Below, in pieces: positions 28,054 to 55,744 of a stretch of DNA of 55,830 nucleotides (its first letter is position 1; each line of letters starts with the position of its first letter). Source of the DNA: a virus; the IMG/VR virus record IMGVR_UViG_3300048818_000025, positions 1 through 55,830 of that record, one strand, 5' to 3'. The notes under the pieces were generated by a model. It had not been told where the DNA came from, did no database searches, and saw only the letters and a program-made list of their open reading frames with translations. Made by a program: the position numbers and the translations under genes.

Positions 28054-28150
28054 ATTCCTTGTTCTCGCAGAAAGCAACCGTAGAGATACCGGCGCGATCA
28101 AAGCCTATCGCGTGGTTGCCGATGCAAGAAAACAAGTCGAGAGAGTTCAC
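28037..28150 (-). CDS. N-terminal remnant of C5-cytosine DNA methyltransferase
   Basis: 37 residues from GTG 28150, GTGA-coupled to the upstream gene. It reproduces the N terminus and SAM-binding motif I of Dcm-type enzymes: LDLFSCIGNHAIGFDRAG then VAFCE. Normal enzymes have FSGIGG at this place. The reading frame then stops, so all catalytic motifs (PC, ENV) are missing. Either a degraded gene or a retained micro-protein. Confidence 0.6.
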   Translation of the reverse strand: MNSLDLFSCIGNHAIGFDRAGISTVAFCENKEYGHDC

Positions 28151-28623
28151 GCTTGGTCATCCTTCAAAACAGGCGTTACGCCTTCAAATTCCCCTGCAAA
28201 AATCTTGCGCATTGTCTCGTTAAAGTCGGCGCGCGTTTCTGCGGTATCTGGCTCAAGAGTAACCGCGCCATCCTCAGCGAACTTCGCAACATATCGCGGC
28301 GACATGCTCGGCTTCAATTTTGACATTGCTGTTTCTGCATCTTCGATGGCCCTCATAAGATCACCGCTATTTTTACGCGCCCATTCTGGATCAAGGTTCC
28401 CGATTGCATAACCAGCCATTTCAGTCAGGAAGCGGAGCGCGTCGTATAAATCTGGCGCGGCGCAGATCAGGTTGGCGTTGGCCTCGATGATTGCCGGGTC
28501 CCCTTGCGAGCCGGGCGTAGCCATAAAGCAGATACGGCGTTCGCTGTCTTGGTGAATGACCAAGTTGGGCAAGTCATCGTCGCCGTATTCGTGGATAGTC
28601 CACGGACTAGGAGTGTGTGTCAT
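28147..28623 (-). CDS. Conserved phage protein (AAPDLYDAL family)
   Basis: 158 residues starting MTHTPSPWTI, preceded by AAGGGA. NANLICAAPDLYDALRFL is a phrase shared by many phage and prophage proteins of unknown role. Helical middle, acidic C-terminal region. ATGA overlap upstream and GTGA downstream place it in a translationally coupled series. Confidence 0.75.
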   Translation of the reverse strand: MTHTPSPWTIHEYGDDDLPNLVIHQDSERRICFMATPGSQGDPAIIEANANLICAAPDLYDALRFLTEMAGYAIGNLDPEWARKNSGDLMRAIEDAETAMSKLKPSMSPRYVAKFAEDGAVTLEPDTAETRADFNETMRKIFAGEFEGVTPVLKDDQA

Positions 28624-28853
28624 CGGCGCAAATCCCTTAGTGCCTGACGGGCAATTTCCTGCAAGTGTGATGCGCTGGTAGCGATTGTGTAAGCGTTTCT
28701 CTCTAGCTTCTCGTTGTTGATCGAGGCGCGGCGTTGCAGCATAACCAACGGGCTGACTATTTCCTCTAGCGCCATCGTCAAACATTCGTTTTGCGAGCGC
28801 AGCATCTTTACTTCTCGTACCATCGCTTCCCATTCCAGAGCTTTGTTAGTCAC
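28620..28853 (-). CDS. Small coiled-coil protein
   Basis: 77 residues from GTG 28853, which overlaps the upstream stop (GTGA). Almost entirely helical with heptad pattern. No family recognised. Confidence 0.6.
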   Translation of the reverse strand: MTNKALEWEAMVREVKMLRSQNECLTMALEEIVSPLVMLQRRASINNEKLERNAYTIATSASHLQEIARQALRDLRR

Positions 28854-36213: not shown

Positions 36214-36253
36214 TGCAACGATGCACCTTTGCTGCCACTTAGAAAGCAGACTC

Positions 36254-36754
36254 ATGCCAAACCCGATTTCATCTTGGACCGACGAGCGAACGTTTCTTGC
36301 GCGTGAGCTTTACGAATCTGGAAAGCATAGCAATGCGCAGATTGCTCGTCGGCTAGGTGGCGTGAGCCGGAATGGCGTCATAGGAAAAGCAAACCGCGAA
36401 GGTTGGGTAAATCCTAATCCTAAACGCGGTGGCACAAAGCCTGGAGAGAAAAGACCGCGAGCCGCTGGCTGGAGCCGCAAGAGTGCGCTATCAATATTCG
36501 GCAATCTATCTCGCAATGATCCTGGCGAAGCTTCCCTTCCCGCTCAAATCACCCCGCCTGAGTTTCTTGCTCTAACACTGGTGGAGCTTGGCAATCGACA
36601 ATGCCATTATATCCCAGGCAATGACCGCCTTTACTGCGGGCAGCCGACTGAGGGAGAATCCTCATATTGCGGATGGTGCAGAAAAATAATATACCAGCCT
36701 ATGTACAGAAGTCATGGGCGATTAACTTTAGTTCCAGTAAACAGTAAGGGGTAA
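36254..36754 (+). CDS. GcrA-like cell-cycle regulator
   Basis: 166 residues. Residues 7-50 match GcrA: SSWTDERTFLARELYESGKH then AQIARRLGGVSRNGVIGKAN. The C-terminal part has the cysteine and histidine block QCHYIPGNDRLYCGQ and SSYCGWC of the family. In Caulobacter, GcrA binds sigma70 and activates promoters carrying methylated GANTC. A phage copy could redirect host cell-cycle transcription or serve phage promoters. ATG 36254 begins at the domain; an upstream TTG at 36221 is rejected. Confidence 0.88.
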   Translation: MPNPISSWTDERTFLARELYESGKHSNAQIARRLGGVSRNGVIGKANREGWVNPNPKRGGTKPGEKRPRAAGWSRKSALSIFGNLSRNDPGEASLPAQITPPEFLALTLVELGNRQCHYIPGNDRLYCGQPTEGESSYCGWCRKIIYQPMYRSHGRLTLVPVNSKG

Positions 36755-36756
36755 AA

Positions 36757-37383
36757 ATGGCCTACTTGGAATCCGAACCAAATTCAGTTCAGCGCGAATT
36801 TCGGCAGGCTCATATTGAGCGACGATTGCGAATAGCCTCGGCAGCTAGGGTTGATAGGCCGATAAATCTCAAGTTCAAGAATGGGATCGACCCATCCATA
36901 GTTAAACGGATTGAGATAAAATCTGTTGATAAAGAGCAAGAAAATATAAACTCTATTCATATCAAAGAGTTAATGGAAAAGTGCATAGCTCTAGAACTTC
37001 AATATAAACAGCTTATGCACAAGTTTTTTCCGCTTGAAACCGCTCCAGATACCCCAGAACCTACCATTTTGATCCGCAAGCCAAGCGTGGCAGAAATAAT
37101 AAAAGAGGTCGCGTTATTTTCGGGATTTACGCGGCTAGATATTCTCTCGCCACGAAGGGAAAAAGAGGTCTGCCGGGCGCGGCAAATATCAGTTTACTTG
37201 GCTAAGAAATTTACCCTACGTAGTTTCCCGGAACTCGGCAGAATATTCGGGCGCGATCATTCTACTCTCGTCCATTCTAGTCAGAAGATCGAGAAAAATC
37301 GCGCAGTTGATCCAATATTGGATGATAATATTAAAGAGCTAGAACTTAGAATTTCTATCATCGCGTCTAAGACTGCACTGTAA
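36757..37383 (+). CDS. DnaA domain IV-like DNA-binding protein
   Basis: 208 residues. Residues about 110-190 match the DnaA-box-binding domain: VCRARQISVYLAKKFTLRSF then LGRIFGRDHSTLVHS, the DnaA signature. Domains I and III (AAA+ ATPase) are absent; the N-terminal 105 residues are unrelated and Lys/Glu-rich. It could mark the phage origin or compete with host DnaA at oriC. Starts 2 bases after the GcrA-like stop. Confidence 0.87.
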   Translation: MAYLESEPNSVQREFRQAHIERRLRIASAARVDRPINLKFKNGIDPSIVKRIEIKSVDKEQENINSIHIKELMEKCIALELQYKQLMHKFFPLETAPDTPEPTILIRKPSVAEIIKEVALFSGFTRLDILSPRREKEVCRARQISVYLAKKFTLRSFPELGRIFGRDHSTLVHSSQKIEKNRAVDPILDDNIKELELRISIIASKTAL

Positions 37384-41348: not shown

Positions 41349-41376
41349 TAGCCCTATACGCATAGTTGACAACTTG
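41334..41376 (+). promoter_or_regulatory. Rightward promoter with repeated operator
   Basis: TTGACA (41334-41339), 15-base spacer, TATACG (41355-41360). The 11-base box TTGACAACTTG occurs twice (41334-41344 and 41366-41376), the first inside a perfect palindrome. Same TTGAC-N5-GTCAA layout as at 35264. The second box lies just before the recombinase start and could also be part of a recombination site. Confidence 0.65.
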
Positions 41377-41388
41377 ATAGGGTTCGGA

Positions 41389-42033
41389 ATGTCCACCGAT
41401 TTACTGCCAAAAGGGTTTTTAGTCGGCTATGCGAGAGTTTCCACAGAAGATCAAAAGCTCGACCTCCAGCTTGATGCACTTAGATCAGCCGGGGTGCTAC
41501 CTGATAATTTGCACGTCGAAAAAATCTCAGGCGCTTCCGCTAAACGTCCGGCTCTTGATCTTGCTATTAAAGACCTTCGCCAAGGCGATACATTGGTCGT
41601 GTGGCGCTTGGATCGTTTGGCCCGAAGTATGCGCCAACTCTACATGCGCCTCGACCAAATTTACGCAAAGGGGGCGAATTTCCGAAGCATTACGGAAGCC
41701 TTCGACTTCGGCACAGTCAGCGGCAAATTCGTCCTCGGAATCCTGGGACTTGTCGCTGAGTTTGAACGCCAGATCATCGCCCAAAGAACGTCAGCAGGCA
41801 TCGCGGCGCTCAAGTCTCGCAAGGGCAAGGAATACAAGTGGGGACGTACATTGCACATGACACCGGAGCGCGTGGCGCTCGTTGGGGACTATCTCAACGG
41901 TCGCAATGGCAAGCCACAGTTGAGCGGACCGAAGATCGCCGCGAAGCTCAAGGTTTCTACGGCCTCAATCTATGGGTATTGGAAACAGGCAGGCAAGGGC
42001 CGGTTCACTCGCCGGAAAGCTACGCCGAAATGA
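41389..42033 (+). CDS. Serine recombinase (resolvase/invertase)
   Basis: 214 residues. Catalytic N-terminal domain: GYARVSTEDQ with nucleophile Ser18, VVWRLDRLARS with the conserved arginines, and FDFGTVSGKFVLGILGLVAE then FERQIIAQR. A C-terminal HTH (GPKIAAKLKVSTASIYGYWK) completes the small resolvase type. May resolve multimers or integrate; no partner site was proven. ATG 41389 follows AGGG; TTG 41374 is alternative. Confidence 0.93.
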   Translation: MSTDLLPKGFLVGYARVSTEDQKLDLQLDALRSAGVLPDNLHVEKISGASAKRPALDLAIKDLRQGDTLVVWRLDRLARSMRQLYMRLDQIYAKGANFRSITEAFDFGTVSGKFVLGILGLVAEFERQIIAQRTSAGIAALKSRKGKEYKWGRTLHMTPERVALVGDYLNGRNGKPQLSGPKIAAKLKVSTASIYGYWKQAGKGRFTRRKATPK

Positions 42034-45649: not shown

Positions 45650-45823
45650 GAACGACCATGCCGATCACGTCAGAGCAGCGCGAAATTCGCAATCTGAAAA
45701 AACACCTTCGCGGGCTGACGGCGCAGGTCATGGAGACGATTGCTAGGATAGACAGGATTATGAAAATTCCGGAAGGACCATTGCGCGGCAAGATGATTGC
45801 CGAGGCGACGAACGCGCTGGAAA

Positions 45824-45831
45824 TGACAAAT
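45824..45831 (+). repeat. Target-site duplication, left
   Basis: TGACAAAT directly before the left inverted repeat, identical to 47564-47571. Eight bases is the usual duplication length for IS1595-type elements. Confidence 0.9.
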
Positions 45832-45846
45832 CATGCTTATCCGGTT

Positions 45847-46917
45847 TCAACATGCAGGCTCTAGCGGTTGATGTGTTCCATGACTGACATTCGGGTGCGT
45901 CCACTCGCCGCTATACAGCCCGTCATAGGTCGGGCTTTCGCCGTTTGCGCCGATGCCCAAGAGCGAGCGGAAGGCATTGAATGGGTAGAAGCGGCGATTG
46001 AACCGGAAGGTAAATTCGTTGAGGTAGGCTTGCAGGTGCTTCGGCTCGACGCGCCCGTGGTGCGTGCCTTGCAGCCAAGCTTTGAGGTTGCTGAAAACAA
46101 GGTGAACGATAGGCAGGTATTCTTCGGCAACATCGGGCTTGTTGGACTCGACCACGGGCATGTGAGCGTAGCCGCGATCAGCAAGCGAGTTGTAGCCGCC
46201 CCAAGCGTCGGTAACGACCATGTTGGACGTAGGATCAACCGCAGCCTCTACAAAGCCGCACAGCGACTTGGCGGTACGGTCGGGGGCGATTTCCAGCCTG
46301 AGACGGCCAGCATATCGGCCACCGCGCCGCATGGGCTTGTCGCCCTTCTTGGCCGGGCGCTGCCGAACCTCGACGGCGGCGACTACGAGCGTCTTGTCGT
46401 CGGCATGGGGACCTTTGCCCTCGCCCCGCGTCACGCCGCCGATGTAGGTTTCGTCAATCTCGATATGGTCGCGGCCCGAAATGCTGCCACCGATCCGGTC
46501 GCGGTCTTGGCGCACCATACCGGCTCGCAGCTTGTGCAGGATGCCGAAGGCGGTTTCGTATCGGGTAAGGCCAAGCTGGCGCTGAAATTGAACGGCGGAC
46601 AGGCCGGGCGTCATGCTGGAAATGAGGTAAGCCCCCCAAAACCAAGTCGTCAGCGGCGTATGGGTGCGTTCCATGACCGTGCCGACCGTCAGGGAGGTTT
46701 GCTTACGGCATTTGCGGCAGGCCACCACATGCGGACGCGCCGCAGAACAGTACAGCGGCTCGCCAATGGCCTTGCAGTGCGGGCAGCGGAAGCCGTCAGG
46801 CCATTTTGCGCCTTCCAGATAACGAGCGCAGGCCGCGTCGTCAGGGAACAGCTTTTGGAACTGCGGCAGGGACTTGGGGAATGGCAGTTTTTCCCATTGG
46901 TGAATGTCTTGGATCAT
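45847..46917 (-). CDS. IS1595-family transposase (ISXO2-like)
   Basis: 356 residues. N-terminal zinc ribbon (RCPHC, CRKC), then the ISXO2-like DDE core: IEIDETYIGG holds the first Asp, VVTDAWGGYNSL the second, and HLVFSNLKAWLQGTHHGRV with FTFRFNRR the last part (Asn in place of Glu is a known variant in the family). The stop lies within the left inverted repeat. Confidence 0.93.
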   Translation of the reverse strand: MIQDIHQWEKLPFPKSLPQFQKLFPDDAACARYLEGAKWPDGFRCPHCKAIGEPLYCSAARPHVVACRKCRKQTSLTVGTVMERTHTPLTTWFWGAYLISSMTPGLSAVQFQRQLGLTRYETAFGILHKLRAGMVRQDRDRIGGSISGRDHIEIDETYIGGVTRGEGKGPHADDKTLVVAAVEVRQRPAKKGDKPMRRGGRYAGRLRLEIAPDRTAKSLCGFVEAAVDPTSNMVVTDAWGGYNSLADRGYAHMPVVESNKPDVAEEYLPIVHLVFSNLKAWLQGTHHGRVEPKHLQAYLNEFTFRFNRRFYPFNAFRSLLGIGANGESPTYDGLYSGEWTHPNVSHGTHQPLEPAC

Positions 46918-46920
46918 GGC

Positions 46921-47181
46921 CTATTTTCCTGTTTTGGCCTGATAAGCGTCGGCGGCGTCGGACGGGTTGTATCCAAGGTCTTGATATTCAGCCAAGCCGC
47001 GCCGTTCCTCAGTTGTGATGACGTGGCCGGGGTTACGGTAGTCCAAAAGCGCCTCGCAAGCATCGCCGACCCACAACATGCGCTTCATGCTGAGTCCGCT
47101 CATGCGGACGTTCCCGAGCTTGTTGACCATATCCTGATGCGCCGGGCCGTGCCCCTCATGGTGTTTCGAGGTACTTGCCAC
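46921..47181 (-). CDS. IS passenger gene B
   Basis: 86 residues, His-rich start (MASTSKHHEGHGPAHQ), acidic middle, no recognised domain. Three bases separate its stop from the transposase ATG, so they are co-translated. Not part of the transposition core as known for the family. Confidence 0.65.
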   Translation of the reverse strand: MASTSKHHEGHGPAHQDMVNKLGNVRMSGLSMKRMLWVGDACEALLDYRNPGHVITTEERRGLAEYQDLGYNPSDAADAYQAKTGK

Positions 47182-47182
47182 G

Positions 47183-47485
47183 TTAGCCTACCTTTCCGGC
47201 AGGATCGGCTATGCGATCCTTTAGCTCGCCCGGTTCAATCGTGGAGTCCTCATGGCTCCAACTATGGCCTGCCCAGTCCGCGACATACCATTTTGTGCCG
47301 TCGCCCGGCACGGTGCGGTCGAGCTTTACCATCGAGCCGTCATGCGAGACAAAAACCTGTTCGGGCGCTAGTTCATCGCGTCGAGCGTACCAGTCGGTCG
47401 TTTTTCCTACGGTATCCACGCCCGTTTGATGGGCTATGCCGCCTCGCGGATCGCTTCCGTGTCCTTTTGCGTCTTTCATGTTCAA
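47183..47485 (-). CDS. IS passenger gene A
   Basis: 100 residues; beta-rich with TKWYVADWAGHSWSHEDSTI, polar ends. First gene of the element's operon, 1 base from passenger B. No family recognised. Could be regulatory for transposition or a cargo trait. Confidence 0.65.
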   Translation of the reverse strand: MNMKDAKGHGSDPRGGIAHQTGVDTVGKTTDWYARRDELAPEQVFVSHDGSMVKLDRTVPGDGTKWYVADWAGHSWSHEDSTIEPGELKDRIADPAGKVG

Positions 47486-47521
47486 CTCCCGTTAACTACG
47501 AGCCTTTCGGCCTCTGCAATC

Positions 47522-47550
47522 TATATAGCACTAGTAGGTGCATGTGTCAA
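47522..47550 (-). promoter_or_regulatory. Strong promoter of the IS operon
   Basis: Minus-strand TTGACA (47550-47545), exactly 17 bases, TATATA (47527-47522). The -35 lies inside the right inverted repeat. It reads into passenger A, then B and the transposase. Confidence 0.85.
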
Positions 47551-47563
47551 GCGGATAAGCATG

Positions 47564-47571
47564 TGACAAAT
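47564..47571 (+). repeat. Target-site duplication, right
   Basis: TGACAAAT directly after the right inverted repeat, identical to 45824-45831. Confidence 0.9.
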
Positions 47572-47685
47572 GACGGCGCGCGGTACTTTGGCCTTGGCGT
47601 AGATTTCCGCAAGGACCGCAAGCCGGGCCGAGACAACGCACCGCCGAAATTTCGTGAAATGCGCGGTATCTTGAAGTCACAATAG

Positions 47686-48201: not shown

Positions 48202-48843
48202 ATGAAAGCTAGAAATAAGAAAGAGGCTGCGATAGTAGTTATTACTAATGCAGCTTTAGTTAATAAAATTGTTGGCGTTAATTTTTCCGATAAATGTAAA
48301 TTATTGGCTCAAAAATACTGTTTTGAATGTCCGATAGTATTAGCTTCAAATCACGCGACCGGAATGGTTACAGCGGATGTAATTGTTTTTGCAACAATGA
48401 TTGCTAAGGAAATCCAGAAGGATTTTCCAAGTTGGTGTCGGCGAGCTTTAGATCATTTAGAAGATAAGGTGGCAAAGCCTTCGACAAAGAGAAAAATAAG
48501 ATTTTTTGAAAAATCAACTAATCCAAATGCGGCCCCAAGCCAAAAGAAAATTGATAATTTTTATGGGTCTTGGGAATGGAAAAGATTGCGGTATGATTTT
48601 ATAAAAAAGAATATCAGAAAATGTAAATGCTGCGGTGCCACACCTGATGATGGCATATCAATTAACGTCGATCATATTAAGCCAATTAGGCATTATTGGC
48701 ATTTGCGCACCAAGGAATACAATCTCCAAGTACTTTGTGCAGATTGCAATATGGGAAAAGGAAGCCGCGATGAGACGGACTGGAGGGGAGATAGGATAGT
48801 CTCTCTTGACTTAATTCGGGAACAACTAAAACCAAGGGGATAA
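48202..48843 (+). CDS. HNH endonuclease
   Basis: 213 residues. The C-terminal HNH: KCKCCGATPDDGISINVDHI, then KPIRHYWHL, LQVLCADCNMGKG with two CxxC pairs. The N-terminal 100 residues are Lys-rich with unknown fold. AT-rich relative to neighbours. Probably a selfish endonuclease, or a packaging-associated HNH; distance from the terminase makes the first more likely. Confidence 0.88.
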   Translation: MKARNKKEAAIVVITNAALVNKIVGVNFSDKCKLLAQKYCFECPIVLASNHATGMVTADVIVFATMIAKEIQKDFPSWCRRALDHLEDKVAKPSTKRKIRFFEKSTNPNAAPSQKKIDNFYGSWEWKRLRYDFIKKNIRKCKCCGATPDDGISINVDHIKPIRHYWHLRTKEYNLQVLCADCNMGKGSRDETDWRGDRIVSLDLIREQLKPRG

Positions 48844-54736: not shown

Positions 54737-55744
54737 ATGGCGGGACTGAACTATGCAAAATGGTTTGCTCCCGCCACCGCTTTCCTTATCTCGGTCGCCT
54801 TCTGGCCTGGAATTTCAGGCGCAGCCACTTCGCCTCGATGGGCCATCGCTGCCGTCTCTCTCGGCTACTTGGATTGGCGCTTGCTGCCTTTCGTCGCCTT
54901 TTGTTTCTTTGCAGTTGACTTTGACAGCGCCGTTCATTGGGCAATCGTTTGTGCGGCGTTCTGTTGGGGGTTGAATGAAGGACAAGGAACTGGAAGCAAT
55001 ATACGAAAGGTCTGCGCAGCTACGTGCGGAGGCATCGCAATTTCTGGCGTCATTGCCGCCTTCCAATGCTACGGCTTTGAAGGCATTCCCCAACTCGCCA
55101 TCCCAGGCGGATTGTTCCTCAACAAAAACTTCATGGGCGAAGCCGCATGTCTTGCTCTCATCGCCAGTCTACAGTATCGACTATGGCTCCCCGCTCTAAT
55201 ATGCGTTCCGGCCCTGATCCTATCGACGAGCAGAGCTTCCTGGATTGGAGCTATCCTCAGTATTTGCTTTATATTGCCTTGGCGTTGGGCGGCTGGTCTA
55301 TTATTTTTGGCAGCTATTATGCTCTGCGCTGGCTATCTGGCGGGGGTTGAAACGTCGCCAGCCACGTTACTACAGCGCCTTTCACTTTGGCATGACGCAA
55401 TACAGAATTTCCATTGGTTAGGTTCGGGAGCTTACGATTATTCCACCATTCAATACCGCGAACCAAACCTGCACAACGATTGGCTACAGCTAATCTATGA
55501 GTTCGGCATCGTCGGGCTTATTCCTCTCATCGTCGTTTTCATGGCCGGAGGAAATGGCCTGCCTTTCGCTGTGGCACTCTTGGTCATTGGCTCATTCGGT
55601 TTTCCTCTACAGATGCCAGCTACTGCTTGGTTTGCTGCTTTTATGCTCGGGCATTTTGTGGGGCGCGGCCATGATGCGGGCCGAAGTGTTATACGCCCAT
55701 GGCGTCCGAACTGGCGACTTCACAGCCCTTTTAGTCGCGCGTGA
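54737..55744 (+). CDS. O-antigen ligase/polymerase-like membrane protein (Wzy_C)
   Basis: 335 residues with about ten hydrophobic helices. LFLNKNFMGEAACLALIASL, STSRASWIGA and the periplasmic-loop signature NLHNDWLQLIYEFGIVG are typical of Wzy_C ligases and polymerases. Such a phage gene could alter host surface polysaccharide, blocking superinfection or receptor re-adsorption. The 3' end is repeated at 1-108, there with three Arg-to-Cys changes. Confidence 0.8.
   Translation: MAGLNYAKWFAPATAFLISVAFWPGISGAATSPRWAIAAVSLGYLDWRLLPFVAFCFFAVDFDSAVHWAIVCAAFCWGLNEGQGTGSNIRKVCAATCGGIAISGVIAAFQCYGFEGIPQLAIPGGLFLNKNFMGEAACLALIASLQYRLWLPALICVPALILSTSRASWIGAILSICFILPWRWAAGLLFLAAIMLCAGYLAGVETSPATLLQRLSLWHDAIQNFHWLGSGAYDYSTIQYREPNLHNDWLQLIYEFGIVGLIPLIVVFMAGGNGLPFAVALLVIGSFGFPLQMPATAWFAAFMLGHFVGRGHDAGRSVIRPWRPNWRLHSPFSRA

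Follow-up and report, generated by a model that had tools for sequence, protein, structure and literature searches.

We propose that a complete IS1595-family element has inserted into a small ORF of an uncultivated P22-like phage with an alphaproteobacterial host. In our reading it is a transporter insertion sequence (tIS), that is, an IS with passenger genes unrelated to transposition (PMC3129680, PMC7986276), and it belongs to a phage-enriched lineage that swaps its cargo. We give this reading a probability of roughly 0.78. The window analyzed here is the whole 55,830-nucleotide stretch of the virus record IMGVR_UViG_3300048818_000025; unless another locus (L number) is named, all positions refer to it.

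The insertion itself is confirmed. The element occupies 45832-47563 on the minus strand (1,732 bp; 59.3% GC against 50.7% for the window) and is bounded on either side by the 8-bp sequence TGACAAAT, at 45824-45831 and 47564-47571, the two copies being an exact match as the initial annotation had reported. With the element and one copy of the target site duplication (TSD) removed, the plus-strand segment 45658-45831 (58 codons from an ATG, left TSD copy included) joins in frame to 47572-47685 (plus strand, 37 codons and a stop), and the 95-amino acid frame that had been claimed is restored together with its stop codon. Left as it stands, the frame from the ATG at 45658 meets a stop about 10 codons into the element. 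Position 47685, previously given as the end of the insertion, is in fact the end of the split gene, and the element itself ends at 47563. Third-position GC is 0.655 in one half-gene and 0.658 in the other, which is weak evidence but what would be expected if the two had once been a single gene. When we scanned for 8-bp direct repeats bounding inverted repeats that matched at 18 or more of 25 positions, there was one case in the window and none in 20 mononucleotide shuffles.

The restored protein has no homologue in the viral contigs, the phage collection, Pfam, or 12 portal-related records, and since the split gene is thus without a detectable homologue, we infer, rather than observe, that the insertion is recent. 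The loci compared did not include an empty site of any lineage member; the two matches that spanned a site were weak and lay at a bacterial locus. Two further features of this region can be recorded. An HNH endonuclease gene (48202-48843) is found about 500 bp from the interrupted gene, and a 605-amino acid open frame on the plus strand (45868-47685) runs antisense across the whole element into the 3' half of the split gene. The latter most likely reflects GC-rich coding sequence on the opposite strand.

The element ends in inverted repeats of 25 nucleotides, 21 of which (84%) are complementary, in keeping with what had been described. One repeat (45832-45856, plus strand; CATGCTTATCCGGTTTCAACATGCA) lies behind the transposase and carries a motif also seen in relatives, and the other (47539-47563, minus strand; CATGCTTATCCGCTTGACACATGCA in the minus-strand reading) forms the promoter end. 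Here, the predicted sigma-70-like promoter is present on the minus strand as proposed, with a -35 box (TTGACA, 47545-47550) inside the inverted repeat and, after 17 nucleotides, a -10 box (TATATA, 47522-47527); TTGAC is kept in the phage relatives. From this end, and all on the minus strand, the order is inverted repeat and promoter, passenger ORF P2 (47183-47479, 98 amino acids from an ATG, beginning MKDAKGHGS), passenger ORF P1 (46921-47181, 86 amino acids, GTG start), the transposase (45847-46917, 356 amino acids, with a zinc ribbon and an ISXO2-like catalytic domain), and the second inverted repeat. The label "IS1595 insertion" was right as to family, but it missed the two passenger ORFs between promoter and transposase, and it is because these are carried that the element is longer than its cellular relatives.

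P1 has no match in Pfam, NCBIfam, or the viral contigs, and P2 has no domain match above cut-off. Homologues of the two in viral contigs could not be confirmed, though the N-terminus of P2 recurs in L017, L065, and L067, the remainder of the protein being different. The promoter end is conserved in the viral members, which share a CATGCTTATCCGGTTGACACATAC-like sequence, a TGCTAGTAT-like -10 region, a short leader, and a ribosome binding site; the 24-bp end of the lineage is CATGCTTATCCGSTTGACACATRC. In many members, a hairpin can be made out by eye in the leader; it received no support from RNAalifold (-0.13 kcal/mol) and is not claimed. A composite transposon was also considered and rejected, as this would need two IS copies flanking the cargo and the record has one.

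Assignment to the IS1595 family is well founded. The transposase matches NF033547 (188.9 bits, cut-off 75, 1e-55), PF12762 (108.7, cut-off 27, 3.5e-31), and PF12760 (36.9, cut-off 25.4, 3.6e-09), which upholds the initial view of a complete element of this family placed cleanly in an open frame. Across 121 aligned relatives, residues D155, D237, H272, and K279 are invariant and the cysteines of the zinc ribbon almost invariant; triads of the DDHK type occur in the IS1595 family. The 8-bp TSD is likewise that of the family and of ISAcr1, and the inverted-repeat core TATCCG(G/C)TTGAC is common to the window element and the ISAcr1 copy in L172. As for the transporter IS label, relatives of the element hold methyltransferases, a PAPS-reductase-like protein, and others inside their inverted repeats; P1 and P2 of the window are without a family match.

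The host phage encodes P22-like portal and coat proteins, a terminase, and an endolysin. A gene for a GcrA cell-cycle regulator adjoins one for a DnaA C-terminal domain protein (36221-37383). GcrA is alphaproteobacterial, and the two genes point to an alphaproteobacterial host, with whose cell cycle the phage may interfere through them. IS elements are regarded as rare in phage genomes and as very rare where the phage is virulent (PMC8136500), and the initial annotation had taken this phage to be virulent. That description is not supported, the phage having a serine recombinase (41374-42033, 219 amino acids; PF00239, 3e-38; weakly like Mpi-type invertases and XisF) and an O-antigen-ligase-like (Wzy_C) gene at the end of the record (54737-55744), though the record, which is possibly incomplete, has no tyrosine integrase. 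These two genes make a temperate lifestyle possible, and the Wzy_C protein is possibly concerned with serotype conversion.

Where the element came from is best judged from its relatives. Scanning of viral contigs gave 73 loci that encode related transposases, with identities of up to 96%. Plasmids gave a best match of 64% (63.7%), of the ISAcr1 type, and the annotated phage collection one of 26%, with no DNA match to either the element or the structural region. An ordinary IS1595 insertion from the host chromosome, for example during a prophage stage, with passengers that are incidental junk, is the usual explanation for IS elements in phages (PMC8136500), and it would suit both a phage that is possibly temperate and an element of 59% GC in a phage of 51%. 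We nevertheless consider it unlikely. All of the nearest relatives, 93-96% identical, come from viral contigs, whereas the best from bacterial and archaeal genomes is 79% identical, bearing in mind that the viral and cellular collections are sampled differently and that IS elements are under-binned in MAGs. Since close relatives are common in viral contigs, the window element does not look like a chance visitor from a host chromosome. Nor would one expect junk to be kept as small co-oriented ORFs, with leader and spacing unchanged, in nearly all clade members whose ends could be mapped.

In a tree of 121 transposases, the clade that holds the window element has 39 members, 34 viral and 5 cellular, and cargo is present in every member that could be scored. 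The sister cellular group (ISAcr1 and others) consists of elements of about 1.1 kb that are mostly bare. Cellular relatives in general are mostly 1.08-1.15 kb long, leaving no room for cargo, and the sequence ahead of the transposase is mostly under 120 bp in these as against mostly 340-1,220 bp of cargo in viral elements. Over all scorable elements, the ratio of those with to those without cargo was 40/2 in viral contigs and 11/26 in genomes, but seven independent tree pairs did not separate cargo from ancestry. The link between cargo and residence in phages thus rests on few independent events, both following the same clade.

Four of the five cellular members of this clade (L075, L076, L079, and L080) have metabolic or unassigned neighbors and no phage families beside them. 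These non-phage neighbors are an argument for a chromosomal source and, barring binning errors, mean that the lineage is phage-enriched and not phage-confined. Terminase phrog_2 was found in 22 of 50 viral records with related elements, and other searches added a few further terminases; the many records without a detected terminase may be fragments or misclassified. A tyrosine integrase was found in 18 of the 50. The lineage thus occurs with and without a detected integrase; many of the records are fragments. L054 and L055, in two viral contigs from a single source genome, are of the cellular type and carry no cargo; they are near to copies from Sphingomonadales plasmids. L009 (6543-8416) and L038 (8296-10377, minus strand) are second, differently related IS1595 elements near a first copy on the same viral contig, each with its own 8-bp TSDs and cargo.

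A sign of cargo exchange comes from close relatives. Of 17 element pairs whose transposase DNA reaches 85% identity or more, only one shared cargo. In the same pairs, the shared block at the promoter end stops at 25-114 bp, and homology restarts between -31 and +9 nucleotides of the transposase start, usually at the ribosome binding site or start codon. Most often, 15 or 18 nucleotides separate the last stop codon of the cargo from the matched transposase start. An example is the window element and L017, where the transposases are 96% identical, and only the first 111 bp and the transposase end are held in common. Within the window's subclade, the first cargo protein starts like MKDAKGHGS and then diverges; in L067 this start runs into a 134-residue protein that is absent from the window. 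In L002, the first 50-odd bp of the transposase gene are duplicated ahead of the last cargo gene, which, on the sequence, looks like the scar of such a join.

The majority of the cargo consists of small ORFs without recognized function. Among the families that can be named are five DNA methyltransferases (three DNA methylases of the N6/N4 type and two C5 methyltransferases), a nucleoside deoxyribosyltransferase-like protein and a PAPS-reductase-like protein in L004, and a match to an XcyI-type restriction enzyme. In the case of L056 (126-2761), an N6/N4-type methyltransferase lies beside a 126-amino acid ORF. This ORF is probably the source of the XcyI-type match, in which case this phage-borne IS would carry a restriction-modification pair. 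Relatives of some cargo genes lie in other phage contigs, outside the mapped elements: the second cargo gene of L027 is 82% identical to L025 (8462-8767), and the methyltransferase of L005 is 47% identical to genes in L014 and L066. Related cargo also occurs in diverged elements, the first cargo gene of L013 having a 70% identical counterpart in the cargo slot of the second TSD-bounded element on the contig of L009. The window itself has a phrog_1273 gene (28147-28833); two cargo proteins also match phrog_1273, and the L076 cargo is 40% identical to the window gene.

Cargo that varies independently of its transposase, and a serine recombinase about 4 kb from the element, might suggest that the IS is secondary to a cassette array of phage genes, or to a composite element, and that another recombinase moves the cargo. 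We regard this as highly improbable. Matching 8-bp repeats lie directly outside matching inverted repeats that enclose cargo and transposase together, both in the window and at 46 of the 73 viral loci. This argues that cargo and transposase move as a single unit; the 8-bp repeat varies between viral contigs, bar near-identical ones, and the window has no second copy of the element. An assembly chimera, in which the assembler joined the element to a phage contig, is less probable still, for although this is a metagenome-derived virus record and assemblers can be misled by repeats, the exact TSD and restored frame require a true insertion at the site and the record contains just the one copy.

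The preferred reading, a cargo-swapping tIS resident mainly in phages, would work as follows. The element would jump into a small phage ORF and duplicate 8 bp of the target. It would act as a compact operon, with a -35 box in the inverted repeat, a short leader, one to three passengers, and a transposase with its own ribosome binding site, such that one transcript might express both cargo and transposase. The slot from leader to transposase would take up unrelated genes anew within short spans of evolutionary time; the likeliest route would be recombination at the shared leader and transposase ends, with either another element or phage DNA as the partner. If the lineage is currently active, accessory genes, some of them DNA methyltransferases or of modification type, could pass between phages and now and then enter host chromosomes, with a possible benefit to the phage.

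In short, the element may be a shuttle that moves accessory genes between phages. A bolder version, which we put forward tentatively and at slightly less than even odds, is that this IS1595 lineage has adapted to phage genomes as a gene shuttle made up of a terminal promoter-leader, swappable cargo, and a transposase, and that it allows the transposon-borne exchange of counter-defence and modification genes, in addition to exchange by homologous recombination, also among integrase-less phages, in which IS elements are regarded as very rare. If transposons of one lineage persist in phages by carrying small genes of phage type, this would give phage mosaicism and the spread of accessory genes a further route. 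The fixed ends also make the cargo predictable, and a search for these ends could yield a large number of small, as yet unknown phage genes.

Among known systems, the nearest is ISAcr1 of Acidiphilium (the plasmid pACMV1 copy, L172), which has a 63.7% identical transposase, the D-D-H-K residues, the inverted-repeat core TATCCGGTTGAC, and an 8-bp TSD. It differs in being 1,080 bp long, free of passengers, and resident on plasmids and chromosomes, whereas the window element is 1,732 bp long with two passengers and is found in a phage. Phage morons are accessory genes with their own promoter among phage genes, as here, but without flanking inverted repeats, TSDs, or a transposase. The tIS idea, reportedly taken from the 2009 paper of Siguier on the IS1595 family, fits the extra genes found between the IS ends. 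Both the family and the idea were therefore already known; the difference is that here a whole lineage bears cargo, is mostly phage-borne, and combines a fixed promoter-leader with quick cargo swaps. Such a phage-enriched lineage appears to be undescribed in the open literature searched, in which no account of phage-borne transporter IS elements was found. Integrons and gene cassettes in phages (PMC9892861) resemble the element in effect, a promoter being followed by exchangeable genes. In the window element, by contrast, the transposase comes last in the gene order, and the element moves in its entirety with a TSD.
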